Notes under the pieces: generated by a model
The model's database searches: none
Told to the model about the DNA's origin: nothing
Seen by the model: only the letters and a program-made list of their open reading frames with translations
Made by a program: the position numbers and the translations under genes
Source: Cytophagaceae bacterium ABcell3
GTDB lineage: Bacteria > Bacteroidota > Bacteroidia > Cytophagales > Cytophagaceae
Assembly: GCA_030913385.1 (NCBI GenBank)
Contig: CP133159.1
Coordinates: 3,804,584-3,868,583 of the forward strand
DNA: 64,000 nt
Direction: 5' to 3'
Shown: in pieces, positions 25,865 to 59,883 of the stretch
Numbering within the stretch: the stretch's first letter is position 1
Layout: each line of letters opens with the position of its first letter

Positions 25865-26158
25865 TCAAACCATCCCGTCAACTTTCCATGAAAAAGCCTT
25901 AATACCTTGTTCAGGCATTTCCTTATTAAGTTCTTTCACCTTTTCTAAAAGTTGATGGGCTTCTTCTTCGGTAACTATGGACATCAAGGCATTATTTAGT
26001 GATGGCCATGTGTGGGTACCCATTCTAGGTTCGCCAGTTTCAGAGCCACGTCCTCGTACGCTTTCCCACTGTGTAAACCCTCTAACGCCAAGACTTTCCA
26101 AAGCTTCAAACACCTCTCCGGTCATGCCTTGATTGTATACAATAAAAACAGCTTTCAT
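25865..26158 (-). CDS. PII-like protein linked to an RND pump
   Basis: This 97-residue soluble protein has the ferredoxin-like pattern of PII-type proteins: strand MKAVFIVYNQ, helix EVFEALESLGV, then strand GFTQWESVRGRG, and a second half with VTEEEAHQLLEKVKEL. It begins 1 bp after the RND pump stop and so belongs to that operon. PII-like proteins encoded with heavy-metal or multidrug RND transporters form a distinct, poorly known group. By analogy it may bind a small ligand or metal and tune the pump. The assignment rests on the pattern and on context, not on a search. Confidence 0.65.
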   Translation of the reverse strand: MKAVFIVYNQGMTGEVFEALESLGVRGFTQWESVRGRGSETGEPRMGTHTWPSLNNALMSIVTEEEAHQLLEKVKELNKEMPEQGIKAFSWKVDGMV

Positions 26159-26159
26159 A

Positions 26160-29100
26160 TCAAAGGTCTTGTAAATTCATCTTCGCCTTGTTTTTTCTTT
26201 TCATTATAGCATATAGTACAGGAACCAATACCATGGTAATAAGAGTAGAGAAAATCAATCCACCAGTAACAGCGATACCCATTGGTTGCCATATTTCAGA
26301 ACCTTCACCTATACTAAAGACCATAGGCAACATAGCCAAAATAGTAGTAAATGTTGTCATCAACACAGGTCTTAACCTAGAACGCCCCGACGCTACTATC
26401 GCCTCATTCATAGACATGCCCCGATTACGCATCAGGTTGATATAGTCTACTAGCACAATAGCGTTTTTCACCACTATACCTACCAATATAATCCCTCCTA
26501 GCAAAGCTAAAATACCCAAAGGTGTATTGGACACGAATAGGCTTAGCAGCACCCCTGAGAAAGCAAAAGGAAGTGAAAACATGATAATAAAAGGGTCAAC
26601 CAACGATTCAAATTGAGCTGCCATGACCATGTACACCAGCATGACACTCAATAATAACAGCATAAACATATCTCCAAAAGCATCTTGTTGATTTTCCACC
26701 TGCCCGCCAAACTCCAGGTATACACCTGCTGGGAGATCTACTTTTTCAATCAAATTCTCAATATCACTAGTAATAGAACCTAAAGCCCTTCCATGCAACC
26801 CTGCGGAAAGTGTAATAACCCGCTCTCTGTTCAACCTTTCTACCACCAAAGGAGCAAACTCCTCCTCTACCCGTCCTATTTCCTTTAGCTTTACAGATTG
26901 TCCAGCCGCATTAACAATGGAAATATTCTCTATATCACTGATAGAAGACCGAAATTCAGGCTTGTACCTGATAAACACATCATATTCATTACCAGACTCA
27001 CGGTACTTAGTAGCAGCTGTACCTGCCACTAAATGCCGTACTGCGTTACCTACTGTGGAGGCGTTCAAGCCAGCCAATGCCATCTTTTCTCGATCCAAAA
27101 CCACCTTCAGCTGTGGCCTGTCTGACCCTCGGCTGCTTTCGACATCTCTTGTACCCGGCACTTGCCGTATTAACCTCATTAAAGAATCTGAGAATAAAGA
27201 GGTTGTTTCAAAGTCGTGACCAATAACTTTAAGTTCAATAGGCTTGCCACTTCCTCCTGCACCACCAAACATAGCTCCAAGACCACCACCTGAGCCAAGG
27301 TTCACCTTAATCACTCCCGGTATACTGTAAACAAAATCACGTATCTCTTCAGATATTTCAAAAACAGATTTATCGCGCAACCCCTTTTCAACAAAACCCA
27401 AGGTGAGGTTCAGGATATGAGAACCCTGCTGCGCATTGCCCATACGTACTCCCTGATCGTCACGACCTACACTGGTACTGATCACTTCAAGGTCTTTACC
27501 ATAGGTTTTCTTCAGATGGTCCTCAATACGGGCGGCAATTTTATCCGATTCCTCTAAACGCCTACCAGTTTCCAATTCTATATTTAAAGTAACACGTCCA
27601 TTGTCAGACTCTGCAATAAACTCTGTCCCTATATAAGGAACAAGGAACAATGACCCTATGAATATTGCCAAAGAGGCAAACAAAGTGAGCTTCTTGTATT
27701 TTAATGCACCTTGGACAAAACCGCCATAAGCATCTTCCCAGCTTTTAAACACGCTATCGCTCCAAACATCAAATCTAGATGGTTTCTTTTCCTGTACTTG
27801 ACGTTTTTTAGACTTCAATAAACGTGAAGCAAGCATAGGTGTCAATGTCAATGCCGCCACGGTAGAGGTTACTACTGTCAAGCTTACAATTATCCCCAAC
27901 TGCTTAAATAACACACCCGTCATTCCAGTCAGAAAAGCCAGCGGAAGAAATACCGCAACCACAGTCAAGGTGGTAGCCACTACAGCAAGCCCCACTTCAT
28001 TAGAGCCAAAAATCGCCGCTTCTTTAGGTCTACTTCCTTTTTCTGTATAGCTGGTAATATTTTCCAATATTACTATCGCATCGTCTACCACCATGCCCAT
28101 AGCAATAGCAAGTGAAGATAAAGAGATAAGGTTTAAGGAGTTGTCTGATATATACAAGTAAATCAGGGCAACTATCAAAGAAAAAGGGATGGTCAGAAAA
28201 ACAATAAAGGTAGACCGCCATCTTTTCAAAAAGAAAAGGACAACTACTATAATAAAAACCCCGCCAAAGATAAGCACTTGACCCAGGTTAGAAATAGAGT
28301 TTACTATAAAGGTAGAAGTGTCGACCACCGTTCCTAACTCCACATCTGGAGGAAGCTGGGCCTGTATTTCAGGCAAACGTTTAAAAACTTCCCTGGCCAC
28401 ACTTACCGTATTAGCGTTGGCTTGTTTCTGCACCCTTATCCGTACGCCTTCTTTTCCATTGATCTTTTCATGCATGGTACGCTCCATCATGCCATCGTAC
28501 ACAGTAGCCACATCAGAAAGATATATCAAGCGCCCTTCATTTTGCCCAACAATAATATTTCGGAAAGCCTCAGGATCATTCAACTCGCCCTCAACACGCA
28601 AGTTGTACTCCATCCGCCCCATATTGATGCTTCCGGCAGGAATATTCTGGTTATTGTTATGTAAAGCCTGGGTAATCTGTGGCACAGTCATCCCAAAAGC
28701 TTCCAGACGGTTTGGGTCTAAATCAACTCGAACCTGGCGAACAGGCCCTCCGGAAACATTAACCGCACCAACACCTGGAATACGGTTCAAGGCAGTCACA
28801 ACCCGATCTTCAATGATTCTGTCAAGCTCAGGAAAGCTCTCATCAGCAGTGGCAGATAGGACGACCACTGGAAAAAGCCCTGTATTAAATTTAAAAATAA
28901 TAGGGTTTTCTGCATCGTCAGGAAGTAAGCGCTGTTGCCGAGCGATGGCATCCCTAATATCATTGGCAGCTTCGTTTAAGTCCGTTTCATAGGTAAACTC
29001 CAATACCACAGAAGAGAAATTATCTTCAGAGGTAGAAGTAATCTTATCCAGTCCAGTCAGGGTACTCAAACCTTCTTCCAGCACACGGGTAATATTTGTT

Positions 29101-29282
29101 TCCACGTCTTCTGCACCTGCACCCGAATAGGAAGTAAATACAGTAATGACCGGAGGATCTACATCCGGGAACAAATCAACTGGTAACCTCAAGAAAGCAG
29201 TACCGCCAAGGACAAATACTGCCACAAAAAACATTAAAGTAGTTACCGGCCTATGTACCGCAAAACTGGTAAGTTTATTCAT
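26160..29282 (-). CDS. RND efflux pump inner-membrane protein (AcrB type)
   Basis: This 1040-residue pump is a proton-driven resistance-nodulation-division transporter. It has TM1 at about 10-28, a first periplasmic loop, a block of spans from about 335 to 490 (with the AIAMGMVVDDAIVILEN relay motif around 400), a second periplasmic loop, and a final span block from about 865. The double Asp in VVDD marks a drug/hydrophobic-substrate (HAE1) pump rather than a metal pump. It overlaps the adaptor gene by 8 bp and works with it and the TolC-like channel. Confidence 0.93.
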   Translation of the reverse strand: MNKLTSFAVHRPVTTLMFFVAVFVLGGTAFLRLPVDLFPDVDPPVITVFTSYSGAGAEDVETNITRVLEEGLSTLTGLDKITSTSEDNFSSVVLEFTYETDLNEAANDIRDAIARQQRLLPDDAENPIIFKFNTGLFPVVVLSATADESFPELDRIIEDRVVTALNRIPGVGAVNVSGGPVRQVRVDLDPNRLEAFGMTVPQITQALHNNNQNIPAGSINMGRMEYNLRVEGELNDPEAFRNIIVGQNEGRLIYLSDVATVYDGMMERTMHEKINGKEGVRIRVQKQANANTVSVAREVFKRLPEIQAQLPPDVELGTVVDTSTFIVNSISNLGQVLIFGGVFIIVVVLFFLKRWRSTFIVFLTIPFSLIVALIYLYISDNSLNLISLSSLAIAMGMVVDDAIVILENITSYTEKGSRPKEAAIFGSNEVGLAVVATTLTVVAVFLPLAFLTGMTGVLFKQLGIIVSLTVVTSTVAALTLTPMLASRLLKSKKRQVQEKKPSRFDVWSDSVFKSWEDAYGGFVQGALKYKKLTLFASLAIFIGSLFLVPYIGTEFIAESDNGRVTLNIELETGRRLEESDKIAARIEDHLKKTYGKDLEVISTSVGRDDQGVRMGNAQQGSHILNLTLGFVEKGLRDKSVFEISEEIRDFVYSIPGVIKVNLGSGGGLGAMFGGAGGSGKPIELKVIGHDFETTSLFSDSLMRLIRQVPGTRDVESSRGSDRPQLKVVLDREKMALAGLNASTVGNAVRHLVAGTAATKYRESGNEYDVFIRYKPEFRSSISDIENISIVNAAGQSVKLKEIGRVEEEFAPLVVERLNRERVITLSAGLHGRALGSITSDIENLIEKVDLPAGVYLEFGGQVENQQDAFGDMFMLLLLSVMLVYMVMAAQFESLVDPFIIMFSLPFAFSGVLLSLFVSNTPLGILALLGGIILVGIVVKNAIVLVDYINLMRNRGMSMNEAIVASGRSRLRPVLMTTFTTILAMLPMVFSIGEGSEIWQPMGIAVTGGLIFSTLITMVLVPVLYAIMKRKNKAKMNLQDL

Positions 29283-30345
29283 TTACAGATTCGGCTTTAA
29301 ACTGAGACACAACATTGACCGGAGTTCCACTATGCAACCTTCCCTGACCAGTAGTAACAAGGGTATCACCTTCAGACAAACCGTCCAACACTTCCACCCA
29401 CTCATTAAAGGATTTTCCTGTAGTAATCGTCTTTCTAACTGCTTGTCCATTATCAATAATAAAACCGTAAAACCTTTGGGTCCCAGGTTGCCTGATAATG
29501 GCACTTCTTGGCACCATTAATGTATGGTTTTCATCCAAATCAAGCGTTATTCGGGCAAACATACCCGGTTTTAAAAGTTCATCCTTGTTATCAACTTTGA
29601 TTTCTACTGTGAAAGTTCTTGTAGAAGGGTCTACCACAGGAAAGATATTAGACACTTCGCCTTTAAATGTTTTATCAGGATAAACATCTGAGCGTATTAC
29701 AGCGCGCTGCCCACGTTTTAACTGTGGGTACAACCTTTCAGAGACATTTACAGTCGCTTTTAATTGATCAATTTGCTGAAGGGTCAAGATCGCAGGCACA
29801 CCAGTAGCCACTGGTGACATAGTAAAAACCTCCCCCTCATTCATAAATCTAGCAGTAATAGTTCCGTCAAAAGGAGCTTTTAGTTGGGTGTTTCTACTGG
29901 TTAAATTATGATTGGTCCGGGCATTCTCAAATTGATCTCTGGCATTTTCAAATTGCTGAAGGGAAATAGCCCCTTCGCGGTACAAAGTATCCATACGGCG
30001 AAGATTCTTTTCTGCTGCACGAAGTTGTACTAGAGACTGATTGAGGGAAGCGTCATTCATCTGAACAAGCACCTGTCCTTTTTTCACTTTATCGCCTTCC
30101 CAAACAAAAATCCTCTCAATAATTCCTGCAGATTGAGCGGCTATGTTTCTGCGCTCCCATGCATTCAGTGTGCTGGTGAAGACTGATTGAAAAGGCATGT
30201 TCTCCTTTCTTACAGGCATTACTTCTACAGGCACAACCTGCTCTTTGGTTTCCTCTTTCTCCTGTTCCTTTTGTGGCTGACAAGAAAAGAATCCCACAAA
30301 TGCTATCAAAAGCAAAAAATTACTTAGTTTAAAAACATGAACCAT
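29275..30345 (-). CDS. RND efflux periplasmic adaptor (membrane fusion protein)
   Basis: This 356-residue lipoprotein has a signal peptide with lipobox VGFFSC (Cys22). A biotinyl/lipoyl-like domain (about 60-95 and 140-175, with WEGDKVKKGQVLVQM and LKAPFDGTI) surrounds a coiled-coil hairpin (about 90-140). The beta-barrel and membrane-proximal domains follow. It bridges pump and outer-membrane channel. It overlaps the pump by 8 bp. Confidence 0.93.
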   Translation of the reverse strand: MVHVFKLSNFLLLIAFVGFFSCQPQKEQEKEETKEQVVPVEVMPVRKENMPFQSVFTSTLNAWERRNIAAQSAGIIERIFVWEGDKVKKGQVLVQMNDASLNQSLVQLRAAEKNLRRMDTLYREGAISLQQFENARDQFENARTNHNLTSRNTQLKAPFDGTITARFMNEGEVFTMSPVATGVPAILTLQQIDQLKATVNVSERLYPQLKRGQRAVIRSDVYPDKTFKGEVSNIFPVVDPSTRTFTVEIKVDNKDELLKPGMFARITLDLDENHTLMVPRSAIIRQPGTQRFYGFIIDNGQAVRKTITTGKSFNEWVEVLDGLSEGDTLVTTGQGRLHSGTPVNVVSQFKAESVNE

Positions 30346-30365
30346 GAGACCTATAACTGAAAGTT

Positions 30366-31682
30366 TTAATTAATATCTATATTTGCCCTGCCTGTCAGCC
30401 TTTCGTATTCTGCATGCGCAATATTATAATCATAAATTGCCTGTAGGTAGTTCAACCTTGCCTGCGTTAAGGCAAGTTCAGCATCATTAAGCTCCAACAA
30501 AGTACCTATTCCCCCGGTGTACCTGGTGCGCGCAATACGCAGCCCACGTTCGGCCAACTGCACTGAATTTTGTTGCGCCTGATAACGGTTCCATGCTTGT
30601 CTCATAAGAAACAGTTGGTTTTGGACTTGCGTCTTAATTGCATCGTCCGTCATTTTCCGTTGTTGCTCTATCTGCTTTTTCCCTATCCGCGCCTGCTCTA
30701 TCTGCTGGTTAGTCATTAAACCATTGAAAATTGGTATATTAAGCTGCAATCCAGTAATGGAAGTATTGACCCAGTCATAGGTAGTAATATCCAAATGTTC
30801 CGCTTGTGTCTGCATTTGATAATTGGCAAAAGCAGATAAGGTAGGGTGTTTGGCAGATTGAGCCAAAGAAACCTGCTGTTCAGCTAAAACATTTTGATAT
30901 CTCAACCGGCGTAAAGAAGGATTGTCCTCCACCGATACCTCCAGTTCCACATCAGCCCTTTCCAATCTCAGGCTGTCTGTGAGCACCATCGCAGTGCCAG
31001 GAGCAAGACCAATTGACAACTTTAGCATTTCCATATTAACTTGGTAATTATCAATAGACTGCTCCAAAGAAGGAAGTACACTTTGCAATTGCACCTCAGC
31101 CCTGACCAACTCATATTCAGACACAACACCCTGATCAAATTGCTGACGGACCTGCCGAAAGTTCTGCAATGCATTTTGGTGTGTAACTTCCATAACACGT
31201 ACAGACTCAAGAGCCAGTAGTGTATTGTAATAGTTCCTTTTCACCTCAGCCACTGTATTGATCCTGGTTTCCCGGTCAGACTCTCTTGCCAACTGTACAT
31301 TCGTTTCTGCAAGTCTAATTCCAGGATAAATCCCCCCAGAATATATAGGGACACTCCCTGAAAGTGTGCCACTAAAAGAATGGTCAGCTCCCAGTTGCAG
31401 GACCTCTCCAAATGGACTTCCTGGTGGAAGAAATATAACTGGACGGAGAATGTTATAGTTGTAAGATCCTGAAGCCTCCACCCTTGGCAAAAGACGTCCA
31501 CGTGCTTCACGAACACCTGAAGAAGCCATGTCGATCTCAAGGTGACTGATCTGAATGTTCCGATTCTCCCGAAGCGACAGACTTACAGCTTCATTCACAT
31601 TTAAGAATAAAGTATCATTCTGAGCAGTAGATCTTTCTGAAAACAAAATCACTGCAACGAAAATCACCAATAATCTTTTCAT
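30366..31682 (-). CDS. TolC-family outer-membrane efflux channel
   Basis: This 438-residue protein has a signal peptide (cleavage near STAQN, residue 20) and two OEP repeats of long amphipathic helices with QLARESDRETRINTVAEVKRN-like heptads and LNYLQAIYDYNIAHAEYE at the end, as in the TolC/CusC family. It forms the outer-membrane duct of the pump. It is the first structural gene of the operon and lies 75 bp after the regulator gene, with a perfect palindrome in the gap. Confidence 0.92.
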   Translation of the reverse strand: MKRLLVIFVAVILFSERSTAQNDTLFLNVNEAVSLSLRENRNIQISHLEIDMASSGVREARGRLLPRVEASGSYNYNILRPVIFLPPGSPFGEVLQLGADHSFSGTLSGSVPIYSGGIYPGIRLAETNVQLARESDRETRINTVAEVKRNYYNTLLALESVRVMEVTHQNALQNFRQVRQQFDQGVVSEYELVRAEVQLQSVLPSLEQSIDNYQVNMEMLKLSIGLAPGTAMVLTDSLRLERADVELEVSVEDNPSLRRLRYQNVLAEQQVSLAQSAKHPTLSAFANYQMQTQAEHLDITTYDWVNTSITGLQLNIPIFNGLMTNQQIEQARIGKKQIEQQRKMTDDAIKTQVQNQLFLMRQAWNRYQAQQNSVQLAERGLRIARTRYTGGIGTLLELNDAELALTQARLNYLQAIYDYNIAHAEYERLTGRANIDIN

Positions 31683-31708
31683 TTATTAAGCAAAATTTAG
31701 AAAATTTG

Positions 31709-31726
31709 GTTCGGTTTCAACCGAAC
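31709..31726. promoter_or_regulatory. Perfect palindromic operator before the efflux genes
   Basis: GTTCGGTT and AACCGAAC form an exact inverted repeat separated by TC (18 bp). It is centred 36 bp upstream of the TolC-like gene start, right behind the GbsR/MarR gene, and is the likely binding site of that regulator. Confidence 0.7.
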
Positions 31727-31757
31727 GAAGTAACGAAAAAAAATTATACTTTCACCT

Positions 31758-32216
31758 TTATACTTTTCTTTTTTCTTCCCATCGTTTGATAATTTTGGGT
31801 AGCTCCTCCTCAAGCTCTTTATAGAGTTCACAGATATCTCGCATGTTTTTTACAAAGTCCTCCTGCTTTCCTCCTTGTATAGCCAAGCCCTCTTCAATCA
31901 GAAGCCTTAAATCATGTATAAAAAAGCTATGATGTTTAATGGTAGTAAGCCATGAGTCTGGTTTAATGACAAAGTACCTTTTTCTATCACCTGGCAAGGT
32001 AATAAAGTCTAAGACCCTTTGTTTTAACAAAGTGTTAACAGAAGCGCTAATGGTACTTTTGCTGGCCCCAAGAAATTCTTGCAAATCGTAAAAAGTAGCC
32101 TGCGGAGGGTCTGAGGTAAGTATAAAGCCAACAATTCTTCCAGCAACAGGCGCCGAACCTGCTGTTTCCAAGAAGCTTCCTATTTTTTCTATATACTCTT
32201 TACGTTGCGAATCCAT
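31758..32216 (-). CDS. GbsR/MarR-family transcriptional regulator
   Basis: This 152-residue dimeric winged-helix regulator starts MDSQRKEYIEKIG. The frame continues to an ATG at 32426, but the extra 70 residues are not protein-like and span a terminator hairpin at 32355-32393, so the inner start is preferred. The winged helix covers about 45-100 (ATFYDLQEFLGASKSTISASVNTLLKQ, then the wing PGDRKRYFVI), followed by a long dimerisation helix. It is encoded directly upstream of the pump on the same strand and most likely represses the pump through the palindrome at 31709. Confidence 0.85.
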   Translation of the reverse strand: MDSQRKEYIEKIGSFLETAGSAPVAGRIVGFILTSDPPQATFYDLQEFLGASKSTISASVNTLLKQRVLDFITLPGDRKRYFVIKPDSWLTTIKHHSFFIHDLRLLIEEGLAIQGGKQEDFVKNMRDICELYKELEEELPKIIKRWEEKRKV

Positions 32217-47103: not shown

Positions 47104-50100
47104 ATGAAAAGAACCTTTACATTTTTTTTACTGCTGTTAACATCTTTCACACTATTATATGCCCAGTCACTGTATGACGACAGTGAAAGTCCGGCATCAC
47201 TTAGAATGGTTTATACCACGGGTACTTATCAACGAGGAGTAGACAACCCAGCTCCCGATGGATATAACAATAGCTCCAAGGTGAGCAGCTTTACCCGAAG
47301 CAATGAAGAGTACTGCGTGTTCGTGCTAAACTCAGGTGCCCCGGCTAAAGATGTGGGTCCATATTTAACAGGAGCAAAAAGATTTACTTTTGATGTTTAT
47401 AGTGAACATCCTGGTACTGTAGTACAAATAAGTATTGCAAGTGCCCATAAAGCCTCAGCCGACTATCCCGTAGGAAGGCACTCCGACTATTCAGCCACTA
47501 CTACCAAAACGAACGAATGGGAAACGCTCACTTTTACTTATGCCGGCTGGCGACCTGACGCTAGTGTAGAAAACTCTGAAATAGATCAATTCAGCATCCT
47601 CTTTGATCCAGAAAAAACAACTTCAGAAGGAAGGACTTACTATTTTGACAACTTTTTTGGCCCTGAAAGAATTACCCCTGAACCTTCAAGGATATTGTTC
47701 GAAAACAACAAAGACATTTCTCTCCTTGACTATACCAGCACCGGCACCTTAACCAGAGGATATGAAAACCCTTCAACCACAGGAGAAAACACTAGCCAGA
47801 AAGTCACCAGATATCAGCGCTCCAGCCAACAGTTTGATGAAATTATTATGGATCCACTGGTACGTATAAATAATGTGGAACCATTTCTGGCAAATCGCAA
47901 AAAGATGACCTTGCAATTTTACAGCGAGTTTCCCGGAACTGAGGTAGTTATCATATTCTCCAATTCAGATAAAAACATTGAAGGGTATCCACATGGGGTA
48001 CACTCCGACTACAAAGCATATACCTCAAAAACCAATGAGTGGGAGACCTTAGTATTTGACTTTGGTTGGCGTCCAGACATAACAGTTTCTAATTCTGAGA
48101 TAGATCGGATAACATTAAATATTGCTCCAAACACAAACTATACCAACACCTATTATTTTGATAACTTTCATGGGCCCCACGTCTTTTATGAAGGCACTGC
48201 ACAGTTGAGCATCAATGAATTTATGGCCTCCAATGGAAATACCATAGCAGATTATGAAGGAGATAGAGAAGATTGGATAGAAATCTATAACAGCGGAGAC
48301 GGCAGCCTTAATCTCAGAGGGCATTATTTATCAGACAACGACAACAACCCGACCAAATGGATATTCCCAGGGGTGATAATAAACCCAGGAGATTACCTTC
48401 TAGTATTTGCTTCGGGAAAAGATACTATATTTCCGAATGGTGAAGCACATACCAACTTCAGAATAAGTTCACAAGGTGAGCCTATAAGGCTTTCCTCGCC
48501 AGATGGTGAAGAAATAGATCATGTGTCTGCCGTGTCCCTTCAAAGAGACAGGTCTTATGGGCGACTTCCTGACGGAAACGGTGAATGGGCTTACCTTTCC
48601 AATGCCTCGCCAGGCGCTTCCAATAATTCTACACCCTCCTATGCTGGCCTCATTACAGAAGTACCATCATTCTCTGTCAATGGCGGTTTTTACCAGGAGC
48701 CTGTTGCCCTGACCATACATGCAGGATCGGAATATGTGATCCGGTATACTTTAAACGGGTCGGAACCTGACGAAAACTCACCTGTCTTTTCCTCTGAAAT
48801 AAGCATCTCCGACAGAAGCGGAGAGCCCAACTTGTTTTCCAATATCAGAACCACTTATTTAAACTATGTTCCATGGTATGCTCCAGAAGAAAATATAAGC
48901 AAAGCCACTACCGTAAGGGCAAGGCTGTTTAAAGAAGGCCATGCTCCTGGCCCAATTGTCACGAACACCTATTTTATAGGAGAAGAACTGGCAACAAAAT
49001 ATCAGATAACGGTGTGGTCGATAGTTACGGACAGCATGCACCTGTTCAGCAAAGAAACAGGAATTTATGTTCCGGGCAAAGCCTTTGAAGACTGGCAGAC
49101 AGGCCATCCGGACGAAGTACCGGACGGTGCCACACCAGCAAATTACAACCAGCGTGGAATGGACTGGGAAAGATCCGCCAGTGTAGAGTTTTTTGAACCT
49201 GAAAATGCAGGAGGCTTTAAAATGGATGCAGGCCTTCGGGTGCATGGGGGATGGTCACGGGCCATGACCCAAAAATCCTTCCGTTTCCACTTTAGAAACC
49301 AATACTCCAGCCGCACACTTGAATATCCGGTATTTCCAGAACTAACACAGAAAATAAATGGCCGGGATGATCTCAATGAGTTTAGAAGACTAATTCTCCG
49401 TCAAAGTGGAAGTGAAAACTCCTTCACCTATTTCAGGGATGCCTTAGCGCACAAGCTTATAGAACACACTTCTGTGTCCACACAGGCTTATCGCTTATCT
49501 GCGGCATACCTAAATGGGGAATACTGGGGGTTATATAACATCAGAGAAAGAATTGATAAAAGCTTCCTTGCTTCACATTTCAAGGTTGACCCTGAAATGG
49601 TGACAATTCTACAATTTAGCGGCAACCTTAAAGAAGGGAAGCAGAAGGATGCAGATGATTACCTTGCTCTTCTGGACTATATCCGAAACAATGACATTAA
49701 CAATGATGCAGTATATGAGCATGTAAAATCCAAAATTGATATTGCTAATTATATTGATTACCACCTTGCCCAAGTTTTTTATGGCAATCACGACTGGCCA
49801 GGCAACAACATTCTGTATTGGAGACTCCACAATGGGAATATAAACGCTTCCTTGCCGGGACATGACGGCAGGTGGCGCTGGATACTGCAGGATGTAGACT
49901 TTGGCTTTGGCTTTGACTCTTCCCCTGAACACAATACCCTTGAAATGGCCACATTGGAAGGCGGCACCGAATGGCCTAATCAAGATTGGGCAACTTTCCT
50001 TTTCCGAACCTTGCTACAGAACCCTGAATTCAAAAACGAATTTATAAACCGTTTGGCTGACCACATGAACACAAGTTTCAAGCCTGAAAGGATACAGCAA

Positions 50101-51468
50101 GAAATCACTAAGTTTGAAAGTGCCCTGGAACCTGTCATCCAGGAGCAGATTCACCGCTTCCAATCGCCTTATGATTATAACTACTGGAAAGAACAGATAG
50201 AAGTTGTAAGGAACTTTGCCGAAAACCGAATACCGAACCAGCAGCAACATATCCTAGATTATTTCGGGCTTTCGGGCACGACCACCGTCACTGTTGATGT
50301 GCACCAAAAGAGAGGGGGCGAAATTAAGATTAGCTCTCTGAGACTAAACAATAAAGTTCCAGGAATAAATGAGAAAGTATACCCTTGGACAGGAACCTAT
50401 TTTAAGGATGTACCTGTTACCGTCTCTGCCATTCCCGAAGCAGGGTACCGCTTTACAGGATGGAACGGAAACAGCGCTTCAAACGAAGACACCACAATTA
50501 CCTTACAGGAGGCAGTAAGCCTGACTGCCTATTTTGAACCTCTTACAGAAGGAGGTGAATTCCCTAGAGCCCATATATTGGCTCAGGCTGATTATACTTT
50601 AAGCGCATGGAGCAATAATTCTGAGGCGGGCACCTATCCCCCATCCATGGTATTCCTGCAGTCCCGAACCGTAGACCCAGGGCTTGCGACTCCTATGGAA
50701 GACCCATATGCTTTTTCGTATAATCTGGACAGAAGAACCCGGATAGAAGGTTTGAATGACAATGGCTTTGCATTTATAAACACCGGAACATCCAATGACG
50801 TCCTGCCCAATGCGGAAGGTCGTGATCTAGGAGCGGCTGTTTTAGCTTTAAACACACTAAATGTTAAAAAAGCCTATATTTCATTCAAGGCAGGGACTGA
50901 GCTTTCTAACCGCAGGATCTATGCCATCCGCCTACAATACAGAGCTGGCAACACAACTGAATTTAGAGACATCATCCATCAAGGAGAACCTGTAATATAT
51001 TTAACAAACACAGACGGGCACTCCGAACATTTTGAAAACATAGAGCTACCGGAGGAAGCATTAAACCAACCATATATACAAGTGCGCTGGGTGTATCACC
51101 ATATCACAGGCATTTCAGGCCCTAGAGCTAAATTACGCATTGATGATATTTCAGTTAATGTTGAAGAAACTCAGGAGGAGGACTTAACTGCTGTAACGGA
51201 CACTAATGATGGAGGGGTAAAGCTGTACCCCAATCCTTCTGATGGAAATTTCAAGGTTGTTTTTTCCGGTAATTACACCGGCAAAGTGACCATAACCATT
51301 ACAGATATAAAGGGCAGGCAAATATTCACAGAAACTTATTATAAGGATTCAGAGCAGAAAACCTGGGGCATGAAAAACATGATCAAGACCTCCGGAATTT
51401 ACTTTGTCAAATGGCAGACACAGGAAAGTACCGGGGTGGAAAGAGTTCTAGTTATCGACACCCCTTAA
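47104..51468 (+). CDS. Large secreted CotH-kinase / lamin-tail protein with T9SS sorting domain
   Basis: This 1454-residue protein has a signal peptide (1-20). Two tandem similar beta domains lie at about 22-195 and 200-360, each with an SDYxAxTxKTNEWETL signature and a YYFDNFxGP end. They are followed by a lamin-tail domain (about 366-490, SINEFMASNG), a chitobiase-type C-terminal domain (about 520-640), a CotH-like kinase domain (about 760-1050, LRQSGSEN ... GEYWGLYNIRERID ... LQDVDFGFGFD), an InlB-type beta repeat (about 1085-1140, GYRFTGWNG), a further beta region, and a Por sorting tail (about 1372-1454, LYPNPSDGNF). CotH domains phosphorylate proteins outside the cytoplasm; here it probably acts on the cell surface. 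Confidence 0.85.
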   Translation: MKRTFTFFLLLLTSFTLLYAQSLYDDSESPASLRMVYTTGTYQRGVDNPAPDGYNNSSKVSSFTRSNEEYCVFVLNSGAPAKDVGPYLTGAKRFTFDVYSEHPGTVVQISIASAHKASADYPVGRHSDYSATTTKTNEWETLTFTYAGWRPDASVENSEIDQFSILFDPEKTTSEGRTYYFDNFFGPERITPEPSRILFENNKDISLLDYTSTGTLTRGYENPSTTGENTSQKVTRYQRSSQQFDEIIMDPLVRINNVEPFLANRKKMTLQFYSEFPGTEVVIIFSNSDKNIEGYPHGVHSDYKAYTSKTNEWETLVFDFGWRPDITVSNSEIDRITLNIAPNTNYTNTYYFDNFHGPHVFYEGTAQLSINEFMASNGNTIADYEGDREDWIEIYNSGDGSLNLRGHYLSDNDNNPTKWIFPGVIINPGDYLLVFASGKDTIFPNGEAHTNFRISSQGEPIRLSSPDGEEIDHVSAVSLQRDRSYGRLPDGNGEWAYLSNASPGASNNSTPSYAGLITEVPSFSVNGGFYQEPVALTIHAGSEYVIRYTLNGSEPDENSPVFSSEISISDRSGEPNLFSNIRTTYLNYVPWYAPEENISKATTVRARLFKEGHAPGPIVTNTYFIGEELATKYQITVWSIVTDSMHLFSKETGIYVPGKAFEDWQTGHPDEVPDGATPANYNQRGMDWERSASVEFFEPENAGGFKMDAGLRVHGGWSRAMTQKSFRFHFRNQYSSRTLEYPVFPELTQKINGRDDLNEFRRLILRQSGSENSFTYFRDALAHKLIEHTSVSTQAYRLSAAYLNGEYWGLYNIRERIDKSFLASHFKVDPEMVTILQFSGNLKEGKQKDADDYLALLDYIRNNDINNDAVYEHVKSKIDIANYIDYHLAQVFYGNHDWPGNNILYWRLHNGNINASLPGHDGRWRWILQDVDFGFGFDSSPEHNTLEMATLEGGTEWPNQDWATFLFRTLLQNPEFKNEFINRLADHMNTSFKPERIQQEITKFESALEPVIQEQIHRFQSPYDYNYWKEQIEVVRNFAENRIPNQQQHILDYFGLSGTTTVTVDVHQKRGGEIKISSLRLNNKVPGINEKVYPWTGTYFKDVPVTVSAIPEAGYRFTGWNGNSASNEDTTITLQEAVSLTAYFEPLTEGGEFPRAHILAQADYTLSAWSNNSEAGTYPPSMVFLQSRTVDPGLATPMEDPYAFSYNLDRRTRIEGLNDNGFAFINTGTSNDVLPNAEGRDLGAAVLALNTLNVKKAYISFKAGTELSNRRIYAIRLQYRAGNTTEFRDIIHQGEPVIYLTNTDGHSEHFENIELPEEALNQPYIQVRWVYHHITGISGPRAKLRIDDISVNVEETQEEDLTAVTDTNDGGVKLYPNPSDGNFKVVFSGNYTGKVTITITDIKGRQIFTETYYKDSEQKTWGMKNMIKTSGIYFVKWQTQESTGVERVLVIDTP

Positions 51469-57351: not shown

Positions 57352-59883
57352 TCACCTCACCTTCACCTCATAGACAAAAGTCTTTCCTTTAGAAGTATCC
57401 AATTTATTGTCTTTGAGCCTGACCCTCGCTTTTTTGTCGCCGTGAATGGTAAGTGGGTAAACCCTGAACTTTGCTTTTCTTTTAAAAGTCACCTGTCCTT
57501 CCATTTCCTGTACAAGCAGAGGAAGTTTGCCAGCATCAGTGATTCCTTTGCGCGAGTAATTGTATTTTTGACCAGTGGCCTTTATTGGAGTTGTGGTAAC
57601 AAGGTAAACCTTCTTAGATTCCGACAGTGGTTTTCCATCAGCCGAAACGACCAGGACAGATGCCCAGGAGTTTTGTACTTCCACATCCATGAAAGGGAAA
57701 CTGAACTTCTGCCCTTTCAGGCCACCTGTTACCCCTTGAACATTTTCACTTCTTATCTGCATGACACCCGCGCCATAGTCAAGTGCAAGCTCGCCTGTTT
57801 CACTTTTAATTACCTTCTTGTCAGCATCGTGAAAAGAGGCAAAATCTCCGATAGGCTGTACCGCTGTTGAGTCTGTTGTCTTGGCTACTTTGGTAACAAA
57901 AGGCAGGTAAAAGTTCTTGTCAAGGAAATCGCTGTACAGCGGAAGAGACTGCCATTGTTCCGGTTTTATAAAATCAGTTACCAGTCCCGGCGCCTGCTTA
58001 ATGTCGCCCCTCAGGAACATAGGTGCTGCCACTACCCATTGCGCTACCTGTTCTGGCAAGCGCGACATCATAAAAGGGTGCAACTCATCTCCGCCTGGCA
58101 TGGTAGAGTCAAAATCAAACTCCATCATGCCATCAAAACCCTGCAGGGAAGCATAAGCTGCTGCAAAAGGAAAGCCCTCCAGCGCATACTCATTAGGATA
58201 GCAAATATTGTATTCTGTAACCATAAGCGGCTTATCAGCCCACCGGAACTTTGAGATGTTTAGCATGATGTTCTTCTGAGGATTCTTAAGCATACTCAGG
58301 TTCTCAATAGGCGCATACAAAATCCGCGACCAATCGTTATCAATTTTCCAGATTTGCGGATGGTCCCAGTATTCATTGGTAATGATAAAGTCCAGTTTGG
58401 TATTGTTGTACTGGTTGGCCAAAACGGGTATTGGGAAATTACTCCCTGCAAGCAAGTATTTTGCACCGGCCTCCCTGAGCTGGTCGTACATATATTGGTA
58501 ATACTTTCTTTCTATGTTGTTGTAAAAAGCGATGCTTTCTTTCACGTCACCTCGGGTATTGTCTTTCTCATTAATAGAAGGTGACGAATTACCAGTACCA
58601 TAATCAAGGCCGAAGGATGAAAGCTTTTTTCCAGGGTATTCTTTTTCAAACTTTTCCTGAGCCATTTTCCGGTAAGGCTCATTAAGTATATCCCCTCCAA
58701 AGTGTAAAAAAGCAGAGGATTCATTGATAAATTCTGACGCAATTATAGCAGGCTCTTCATAATAATGAAGTTTGGTATAAGGATTTTTATGTGAAAGCAA
58801 CTGCTGCGCATAATCTACTTGATATTCAATAACTTTATCGTGAAAATATCCAACCTGTTTTCCTCCTAAGTCTGGCAGGTCATGCTCAACACCCTCAAGA
58901 CCATTAAAATCCCTATGCACCAGCAGGTCGAGAAAGGTGTAGATACCTTTTTTCTTCAAAGCATGAATCAGGTAGTCGAGTTTGTCCAGGCTTTCAGGAG
59001 ATAGTTTTTCAGCCGCGGCGCCACTATTAAAAATATTAGGGTCTGCCCATGGAGCATCCATATGGTGGAAGCGTACCAGGTTACAGCCCATCTTGCTCAG
59101 ACGCGTGGCAAGTGAATCGGCAGTTTTTTTTGAAGGAAAACAGTTTCCCCCTACCAGGTTAACGCCCCAAAACTTTGCAGGCGTGCCGTCTTCAAAAACC
59201 ACTTTATTTCCAGATGTCTGCAAAAAGCCATGTTTACCTGCGGGCGCATCCAGAAGGTTCGACCAGTCTACATAATGGCTCCCATTAAGTGCAGGCTGAA
59301 CCTCAAATGCATACCAGTTTCCTTCATCTACAGGTCCAGAAGGGAGTTCGGCATCCAGAAAGTCGCCATTTTTGTCTTTAAACTGTACAGTAAGCTCATC
59401 AAAATAGGCCGTTCCGCTGGCATTGCCCAAACCTACAAATACTTTTACGCTTCTGACGGCCGTGGAAATTGGGTAGGTGTTTGAGTAAAAAGTCCAATCT
59501 CTTGTACCAGTCCGCTGTCCTACCACAGGCGGATAGCCACCTTCCAAAGCACCTGCTTCATTTAGGAGTTCTACTGAAATACGTGCCTGCTCCCATGGCT
59601 GGTTGCCCCGCTTTACACTGTCCACCTTCATCCATCCACTAACAACTAACTCTACTACTCCCTCAGGCATAAAAACAATCTGGTCAGCACCCGACCATTT
59701 GTGCTCGCGGTTAAAAACCTTAAGGCTGCGCTTGCCTTCTTTAGCGGTTAAAGAGATTTCTCCACCCCAAAGATTCCAGTCGCTTTCACTTTCTTCAAAA
59801 CCAGGGTTTCTTAATTGATTTTGAGCAAAGGAACTGTAAAACAGAACGCTCAAAAGGATGGTTGCAAATGTTTTTAAGTTCAT
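57352..59883 (-). CDS. Exported glycoside hydrolase, clan GH-A type, with N-terminal CBM
   Basis: This 843-residue protein has a signal peptide (1-20). A CBM4/9-like jelly roll (about 22-170, LRNPGFEESESDW ... TAYFDELTV) is followed by a TIM barrel (about 225-620). The expected acid/base Glu388 stands in FINESS (Asn-Glu pair) and a likely nucleophile Glu557 in VTEYNI, as in GH5/GH-A enzymes. The C-terminal 200 residues are beta-rich. It cleaves an unknown polysaccharide in the periplasm or outside; no sorting tail is visible. No SusCD genes flank it. Confidence 0.82.
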   Translation of the reverse strand: MNLKTFATILLSVLFYSSFAQNQLRNPGFEESESDWNLWGGEISLTAKEGKRSLKVFNREHKWSGADQIVFMPEGVVELVVSGWMKVDSVKRGNQPWEQARISVELLNEAGALEGGYPPVVGQRTGTRDWTFYSNTYPISTAVRSVKVFVGLGNASGTAYFDELTVQFKDKNGDFLDAELPSGPVDEGNWYAFEVQPALNGSHYVDWSNLLDAPAGKHGFLQTSGNKVVFEDGTPAKFWGVNLVGGNCFPSKKTADSLATRLSKMGCNLVRFHHMDAPWADPNIFNSGAAAEKLSPESLDKLDYLIHALKKKGIYTFLDLLVHRDFNGLEGVEHDLPDLGGKQVGYFHDKVIEYQVDYAQQLLSHKNPYTKLHYYEEPAIIASEFINESSAFLHFGGDILNEPYRKMAQEKFEKEYPGKKLSSFGLDYGTGNSSPSINEKDNTRGDVKESIAFYNNIERKYYQYMYDQLREAGAKYLLAGSNFPIPVLANQYNNTKLDFIITNEYWDHPQIWKIDNDWSRILYAPIENLSMLKNPQKNIMLNISKFRWADKPLMVTEYNICYPNEYALEGFPFAAAYASLQGFDGMMEFDFDSTMPGGDELHPFMMSRLPEQVAQWVVAAPMFLRGDIKQAPGLVTDFIKPEQWQSLPLYSDFLDKNFYLPFVTKVAKTTDSTAVQPIGDFASFHDADKKVIKSETGELALDYGAGVMQIRSENVQGVTGGLKGQKFSFPFMDVEVQNSWASVLVVSADGKPLSESKKVYLVTTTPIKATGQKYNYSRKGITDAGKLPLLVQEMEGQVTFKRKAKFRVYPLTIHGDKKARVRLKDNKLDTSKGKTFVYEVKVR

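Follow-up and report, generated by a model that had tools for sequence, protein, structure and literature searches.

The DNA analyzed here is a 64,000-nt window (the whole stretch, from contig CP133159.1 of Cytophagaceae bacterium ABcell3), and all coordinates are positions within it. On its minus strand, at 25865–32216, lies an operon that reads GbsR/MarR-type regulator, TolC-type outer membrane channel, HlyD-type membrane-fusion protein, resistance-nodulation-division (RND) pump and, as the last gene, a 97-amino-acid PII-like protein (25865–26158), which with its pump is the subject of this work. The five-gene operon had been read from the sequence in the original prediction; all genes were found in place, and their domains were confirmed by Pfam and NCBIfam. 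The pump gene (26160–29282) encodes 1040 amino acids, and its stop codon ends at 26160, with the ATG of the PII-like gene at 26158, leaving the 1-bp spacer that had been noted earlier. Upstream, the channel gene (30366–31682) matched Pfam OEP at 199.6 bits, and the gene for the periplasmic adaptor of the HlyD/RND_mfp family (29275–30345), which overlaps the pump start by 8 bp, matched TIGR01730 at 240.8 bits (cut-off 94.9) and Pfam HlyD_D23 at 117. A scan for a promoter or terminator at the PII end of the operon found none, and an Rfam search gave no match.

The small protein scored 115.4 bits over the whole model of NCBIfam NF045581 (PG0541 family transporter-associated protein; cut-off 45) and 39.3 bits against Pfam P-II (cut-off 25), which places it in the PII superfamily, and its gene sits beside an RND transporter gene, 1 bp after it, as is characteristic of the PG0541 family. 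All 33 PII-like sequences that were aligned matched NF045581. An AlphaFold model built from these sequences, which are 44–58% identical to the window protein, had a mean predicted local distance difference test (pLDDT) score of 85.2 and a predicted template modeling (pTM) score of 0.78 as a single chain. Its secondary structure, beta-alpha-beta-beta-alpha-beta (ferredoxin-like) with a low-confidence loop at about residues 31–50, is that of the PII fold. The top Foldseek match was the PII-like protein TTHA0516 (2cz4), for which a search of open-access papers gave no hit. VIA-align gave a Z score of 11.8 to CPII (5drk_C; 2.1 Å over 81 residues), 11.6 to both SbtB and an Anabaena PII-like protein, 11.4 to 2cz4 and 11.0 to PotN; CutA was absent among the VIA rows listed, which does not exclude a likeness to CutA. 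The structural check proposed with the original prediction thus came out in its favor, AlphaFold, Foldseek and VIA all giving a PII fold.

The pump is of the hydrophobe/amphiphile efflux (HAE-1), or drug, type. It matched Pfam ACR_tran at 890 bits, with MdtB as the nearest solved structure, and carries the Asp-Asp pair of this type in transmembrane helix 4 as D400-D401 (codons at 28080–28085, minus strand) in IAMGMVVDDAIVILEN; we take this pair to be the proton relay. Among NCBIfam models, the HAE-type model RND_permease_2 scored 816 bits and the heavy-metal model 463, the pump falling below the curated cut-offs of both (1250 for the best HAE model). A metal-pump identity was ruled out by the Asp pair together with the lower heavy-metal score. 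The drug-type Asp pair that had been pointed out earlier is not peculiar to this pump: of the 168 distinct pumps that have a PG0541-family PII partner, 160 keep it. Eight PII-paired pumps of about 800 bits, all from one subgroup (L287, L291, L292, L294–L298), have Asp-Asn instead.

Conservation of the pump-PII pairing was followed in 32 named loci, in a 395-genome sample of the phylum and in 295 genomes of a related order (that of G347). Of the named loci, 31 could be read upstream of the PII gene, and all 31 have an RND pump there; the 32nd (L061) is cut by a contig end. In the phylum sample, 19 genomes, the window's included, carried a PG0541 gene above the cut-off, and all 19 had an RND pump upstream. 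Matches below the cut-off behaved differently, as none of the 17 that were opened (15 of 17 from the phylum sample and both from a search of 39 relatives) lay near an RND gene; these (L086–L102) resemble other small PII-like proteins, some being TTHA0516-like by eye. Pump searches scored two pump candidates per genome. In the 395 genomes, all 12 pumps of at least 953 bits have a PII gene, the next match scored 703 bits, and the 18 pump loci from 703 to 655 bits have PII in 6 and none in 12.

In the 295-genome order, the PII family was present in 146 genomes and the clade pump in 135, with both in 134, the pump only in 1, PII only in 12 and neither in 148. Among the 142 pump matches, 132 had a listed PII gene at most 1.5 kb downstream, 3 more had one after the sequence was fetched and 2 had none, so that PII lay directly downstream of 135 of 137 testable clade pumps; the other five end at contig ends (G574, G696), lie at most 263 bp from one (G440, G710) or are a partial match (G704). 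Seen from the other side, the PII matches listed numbered 150, from 142 of the 146 genomes, and 143 of the 145 examined adjoin an RND gene (132 paired with a listed pump and 11 of 13 further ones). Spacing over 179 pairs had a median of 18 bp, with at most 20 bp in 92 and an overlap in 8. These counts rule out a chance neighbor, and the pairing is near obligatory in the clade. Conservation in relatives, on which the original prediction had staked its claim, therefore held in all three samples.

Three loci depart from this pattern. L151 (G459:C133) has a clade-1 pump of 962 bits followed by a frame that by eye is ABC-transporter-like, a PII-free natural control. At L157:4864-5211 (G572:C118) a PG0541-family gene has no RND pump upstream, the clade pump of the same genome lying on another contig without PII. 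A PG0541-family gene at L168:5348-5608 (G663:C11) looks decayed, with an in-frame stop splitting it and no RND gene found in the sequence around it.

PII-bearing pumps fell into two clades. In clade 1 (the window, Bacteroidales and others), all 14 pumps of the thinned tree have PII, with full support; in clade 2, PII accompanies seven of eight pumps, the exception being L138, with no PII in its 1.5-kb flank and no match in its genome (G243). A single common clade was rejected by the approximately unbiased (AU) test on a quick tree (LG+G4), with p-AU = 6.8e-54 for all rows and 1.8e-4 without the window genome's own paralogues. With two separate PII-bearing clades, the partnership was gained or lost repeatedly; the clade pattern fits a common ancestor followed by losses and two recruitments equally well. 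In the relatives search, which covered 39 genomes of the same family and order, the window genome was the sole carrier of a PG0541 gene above the cut-off. The window TolC is closer to the L070–L078 group (296–354 bits, eight scored) than to the named loci (48–124 bits), and the pump is about 41–52% identical to both; horizontal gain is possible. A simple mobile cassette was considered, since three plasmid records gave good matches to the PG0541 family (Parabacteroides, Phocaeicola and Bacteroides), but the two examined (H1 and H3) were typed as non-mobilizable, and the downstream genes of H1 look chromosomal; a further record, H4, carries no annotation.

The regulator is the variable part of the operon. 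In the window it is a protein of 152 amino acids from its ATG (31758–32216), scoring 28.4 bits against Pfam MarR_2, barely above the cut-off of 27; a TTG frame extends to 32426, past the ATG. A TetR-like gene opens the operon in 31 of the 33 clade-1 relatives whose upstream sequence can be read, and TetR was found in one of seven clade-2 operons. A Pfam check of ten upstream genes (nine from clade 1) placed nine above the TetR_N cut-off and one, L044, just below. A GbsR/MarR gene at the head of a PII-bearing operon was seen in the window only, so the GbsR-headed layout first described is true here and is not general, the relatives having TetR first. A search of 98 genomes of the order placed relatives of the window GbsR in 11, counting the window genome, and at 13 loci, counting the window; an outer membrane channel gene lies directly downstream at 10 of the 12 other loci. 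In three genomes where efflux operons open with such a relative (G401, G406 and G410), the relatives search found no PG0541 match; the flanks at the GbsR-relative loci are too short to reach the operon ends for PII. Since the regulator was exchanged (TetR, GbsR) while PII was kept, PII travels with the pump and not with the regulator, and the pump is its constant partner. The simplest reading is a regulator swap, with pump and PII staying together.

Between the regulator and TolC genes, a perfect dyad, GTTCGGTT-TC-AACCGAAC (31709–31726), is operator-like; the sequence scan also read it as a terminator-like hairpin, and no second exact copy was found in the window genome. The 13 GbsR loci, 44,772 bases in all, hold 21 sites of the form GTTC-N10-GAAC, of which this is one, spread over 11 loci, the window's among them; 50 background loci (L036–L085) hold 18 in 714,180 bases. 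From these counts, the motif is a candidate operator of this GbsR branch. It often flanks the regulator gene on both sides (window 31709–31726; L300–L312).

The most conserved stretch of the PII-like family is the T-loop region, residues 36–55 (GRGSETGEPRMGTHTWPSLN; 25994–26053, minus strand), which was modeled with low pLDDT. In the alignment of 33, invariant residues made up 9 of 20 positions in this region and 10 of 77 elsewhere (Fisher p = 0.003), and across 168 distinct pump-PII pairs the columns at least 95% conserved were M1, K2, G36, G38, G42, W51 and P52. In an alignment read by eye, G36 and G38 correspond to G35 and G37 of GlnZ/GlnK. K87 (codon at 25898–25900, minus strand) is, in an alignment to GlnZ anchored by eye on a shared phenylalanine, the counterpart of K90 of GlnB/GlnK, which we take to be a phosphate-contacting residue; this position is basic (R, H or K) in 160 of 168 distinct members, the window protein among them, and T in the other 8. 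The counterpart of Q39 is E40 in the window protein, with Q in 8 of 168 members, and the chain stops short of the C-loop, leaving no counterparts of R101 and R103. These three residues of GlnB/GlnK presumably belong to the ATP/2-oxoglutarate site. Because the glycines and the basic residue at the K90 position are kept, whereas Q39 and the C-terminal arginines are not, the protein, as far as its residues tell, keeps part of the nucleotide site, and classical 2-oxoglutarate sensing is unlikely. The same three missing residues rule out a canonical nitrogen PII protein (GlnB/GlnK). The window genome has two canonical PII genes besides, one of which (G000:C1:4578597, L002) is followed by an ammonium transporter gene; a PII gene beside an ammonium transporter gene is the classical arrangement.

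The exchange of regulators around an unchanging PII-pump pair makes docking on the pump the explanation that fits the pairing best. Our preferred reading, to which we assign a probability of about 0.42, is that the PII-like protein may be a cytoplasmic ligand-gated modulator that docks on the pump trimer, by analogy with GlnK on AmtB and SbtB on SbtA. RND pumps are trimers, and GlnK on AmtB is a precedent for the docking of a PII protein on a transporter. According to PMC8352866, the SbtB trimer sits on the SbtA trimer along a common axis, with the T-loop inserted in the transporter.

In the proposed mechanism, the protein would be a dedicated PII-family signal protein for the preceding pump, presumably co-produced with it, given the 1-bp spacing on one strand, probably cytoplasmic, as its translation shows no signal sequence, and trimeric, as expected of the PII family. 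The cleft under the T-loop would bind a small ligand, with an adenine nucleotide or other anion as the likeliest candidate, as suggested by the retained glycines and the basic residue at the K90 position and by the loss of the 2-oxoglutarate glutamine and C-terminal arginines. Depending on this ligand, the protein would dock on the pump trimer from its cytoplasmic side and turn pump activity up or down, and transcription of the operon would, judging from gene content, be under separate control, by TetR in most relatives and GbsR here. The close association with the pump hints that multidrug efflux may respond to a cell signal. The complete picture, in which a PII-family trimer caps the cytoplasmic face and gates a multidrug RND pump by a nucleotide or metabolite, in partnership with two pump clades, is somewhat doubtful.

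Covariation between PII and pump was measured as mutual information over 147 pairs (167 thinned at 90% identity), with an approximate pump topology drawn from hydropathy and the general topology of AcrB. Cytoplasmic pump columns made up 19.0% of the top 500 couplings (p = 0.01; 12.6% expected from circular shifts) and 17.3% of the top 1000 (p = 0.009), and the adaptor control was not enriched. On subsampling, the mean cytoplasmic share was 16.8% for PII and 14.1% for the adaptor. Several observations weigh against docking. Cytoplasmic enrichment was absent from the top 100 and 200 couplings (p = 0.25 and 0.17), and so appeared at two of four cut-offs only. The adaptor control failed to point at the periplasm, which marks the method as low in power. 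T-loop columns had no cytoplasmic preference (p = 0.83), and the 22 clade-1-specific pump columns were 12 periplasmic, 9 membrane and 1 cytoplasmic, with no cytoplasmic enrichment. Finally, two clade pumps (G572 and G459) have no adjacent PII, and the G459 genome has no PG0541 match at all. As evidence for docking, the covariation is too weak.

Other roles for the protein were weighed against docking. It could sense substrate or metabolic state and signal to the DNA-binding regulator of its operon, controlling transcription and not the pump. A regulator does head the operon in the window and in nearly all readable clade-1 relatives, and PII proteins can work via transcription factors. This role is nonetheless unlikely, since the regulator varies (TetR, GbsR, or no adjacent TetR in six of seven clade-2 operons) while PII is kept, and the GbsR relative heads efflux operons in three genomes without a PG0541 match. 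Improbable, too, is a cytoplasmic ligand binder, a CutA-like sink or chaperone for a metal, nucleotide or xenobiotic, that would aid the pump without contact. The loop residues H49 and W51 are invariant in the 33-sequence alignment, and CutA-type binding of metals, at the site where PII holds its nucleotide, is on record for the superfamily (PMC7726332), but the pump is of drug and not metal type, and H49 is R in all seven clade-2 sequences, which makes a shared histidine metal site unlikely. A role in pump assembly or stability that involves no sensing would suit the downstream position, the tight spacing and a loop that is the most conserved part of the protein; the retained ligand-site glycines and basic residue speak against it, and we consider it quite improbable. 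The protein could also be a general PII-like signal protein whose targets lie elsewhere, the operon being just its production site. The one orphan gene without a neighboring pump (G572, L157) would fit, yet with almost every examined gene adjoining an RND gene and two canonical PII genes already in the window genome we give this reading little credence.

Docking as preferred here has partial parallels in known systems. The window shares with GlnK-AmtB and SbtB-SbtA the PII fold, a gene adjoining a transporter gene and a conserved T-loop; unlike theirs, its partner is a proton-driven RND export pump, the 2-oxoglutarate glutamine and C-terminal arginines are missing, and docking is inferred. PII-NG protein GSU2134 is a PF00543 protein encoded in an RND operon with CzcABC (PMC7726332), one case in line with the remark in the original prediction that PII-like proteins reported beside RND pumps mostly go with metal pumps. 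Compared by description and not by sequence, that system has a metal pump (heavy-metal efflux, HME) with its PII gene first, whereas the window has a drug-type pump, with the Asp pair and a better fit to HAE models, and its PII gene last. AcrZ (49 residues, a helix lying around the membrane domain) and WatS1 (55 residues) are small proteins that bind and tune RND pumps (PMC10710835), small pump modulators as proposed for the window protein; neither is described as a PII sensor in the available text of that paper.

Closest of all is the PG0541 family itself, named after Porphyromonas gingivalis PG0541, with which the window shares the family score and the position after an RND permease; the window operon differs in opening with GbsR in place of TetR. 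XepCAB is probably the pump beside PG0541. It is, like the window pump, an RND drug pump, with rifampin, puromycin and ethidium as substrates (PMC4790292). A table of proteins restricted to Bacteroidales or to a part of that order lists PG0541 as a conserved hypothetical protein (PMC1887533), and its gene was one of those increased about twofold in a rat model (PMC4493947). The description of such proteins as little studied stands insofar as no functional study of the PG0541 family was found in the open-access papers searched, but the family is already catalogued, since NCBIfam names it as NF045581. The PG0541-type operon is thus real, conserved and already catalogued.

Control of drug efflux has been studied mainly at the level of transcription. 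A soluble sensor acting on the pump protein would, if true, be a second layer of efflux control and would tie efflux in a large phylum with gut and oral species to energy or nitrogen state. The near-obligatory pairing offers a clean genetic test, and even without docking, a catalogued, unstudied family belongs with particular pump clades.

Elsewhere in the window, positions 47104–51468 encode a 1454-amino-acid protein with CotH kinase, lamin-tail and Por-secretion-tail domains, and an 843-amino-acid frame at 57352–59883 on the minus strand had no Pfam match at 1e-10.

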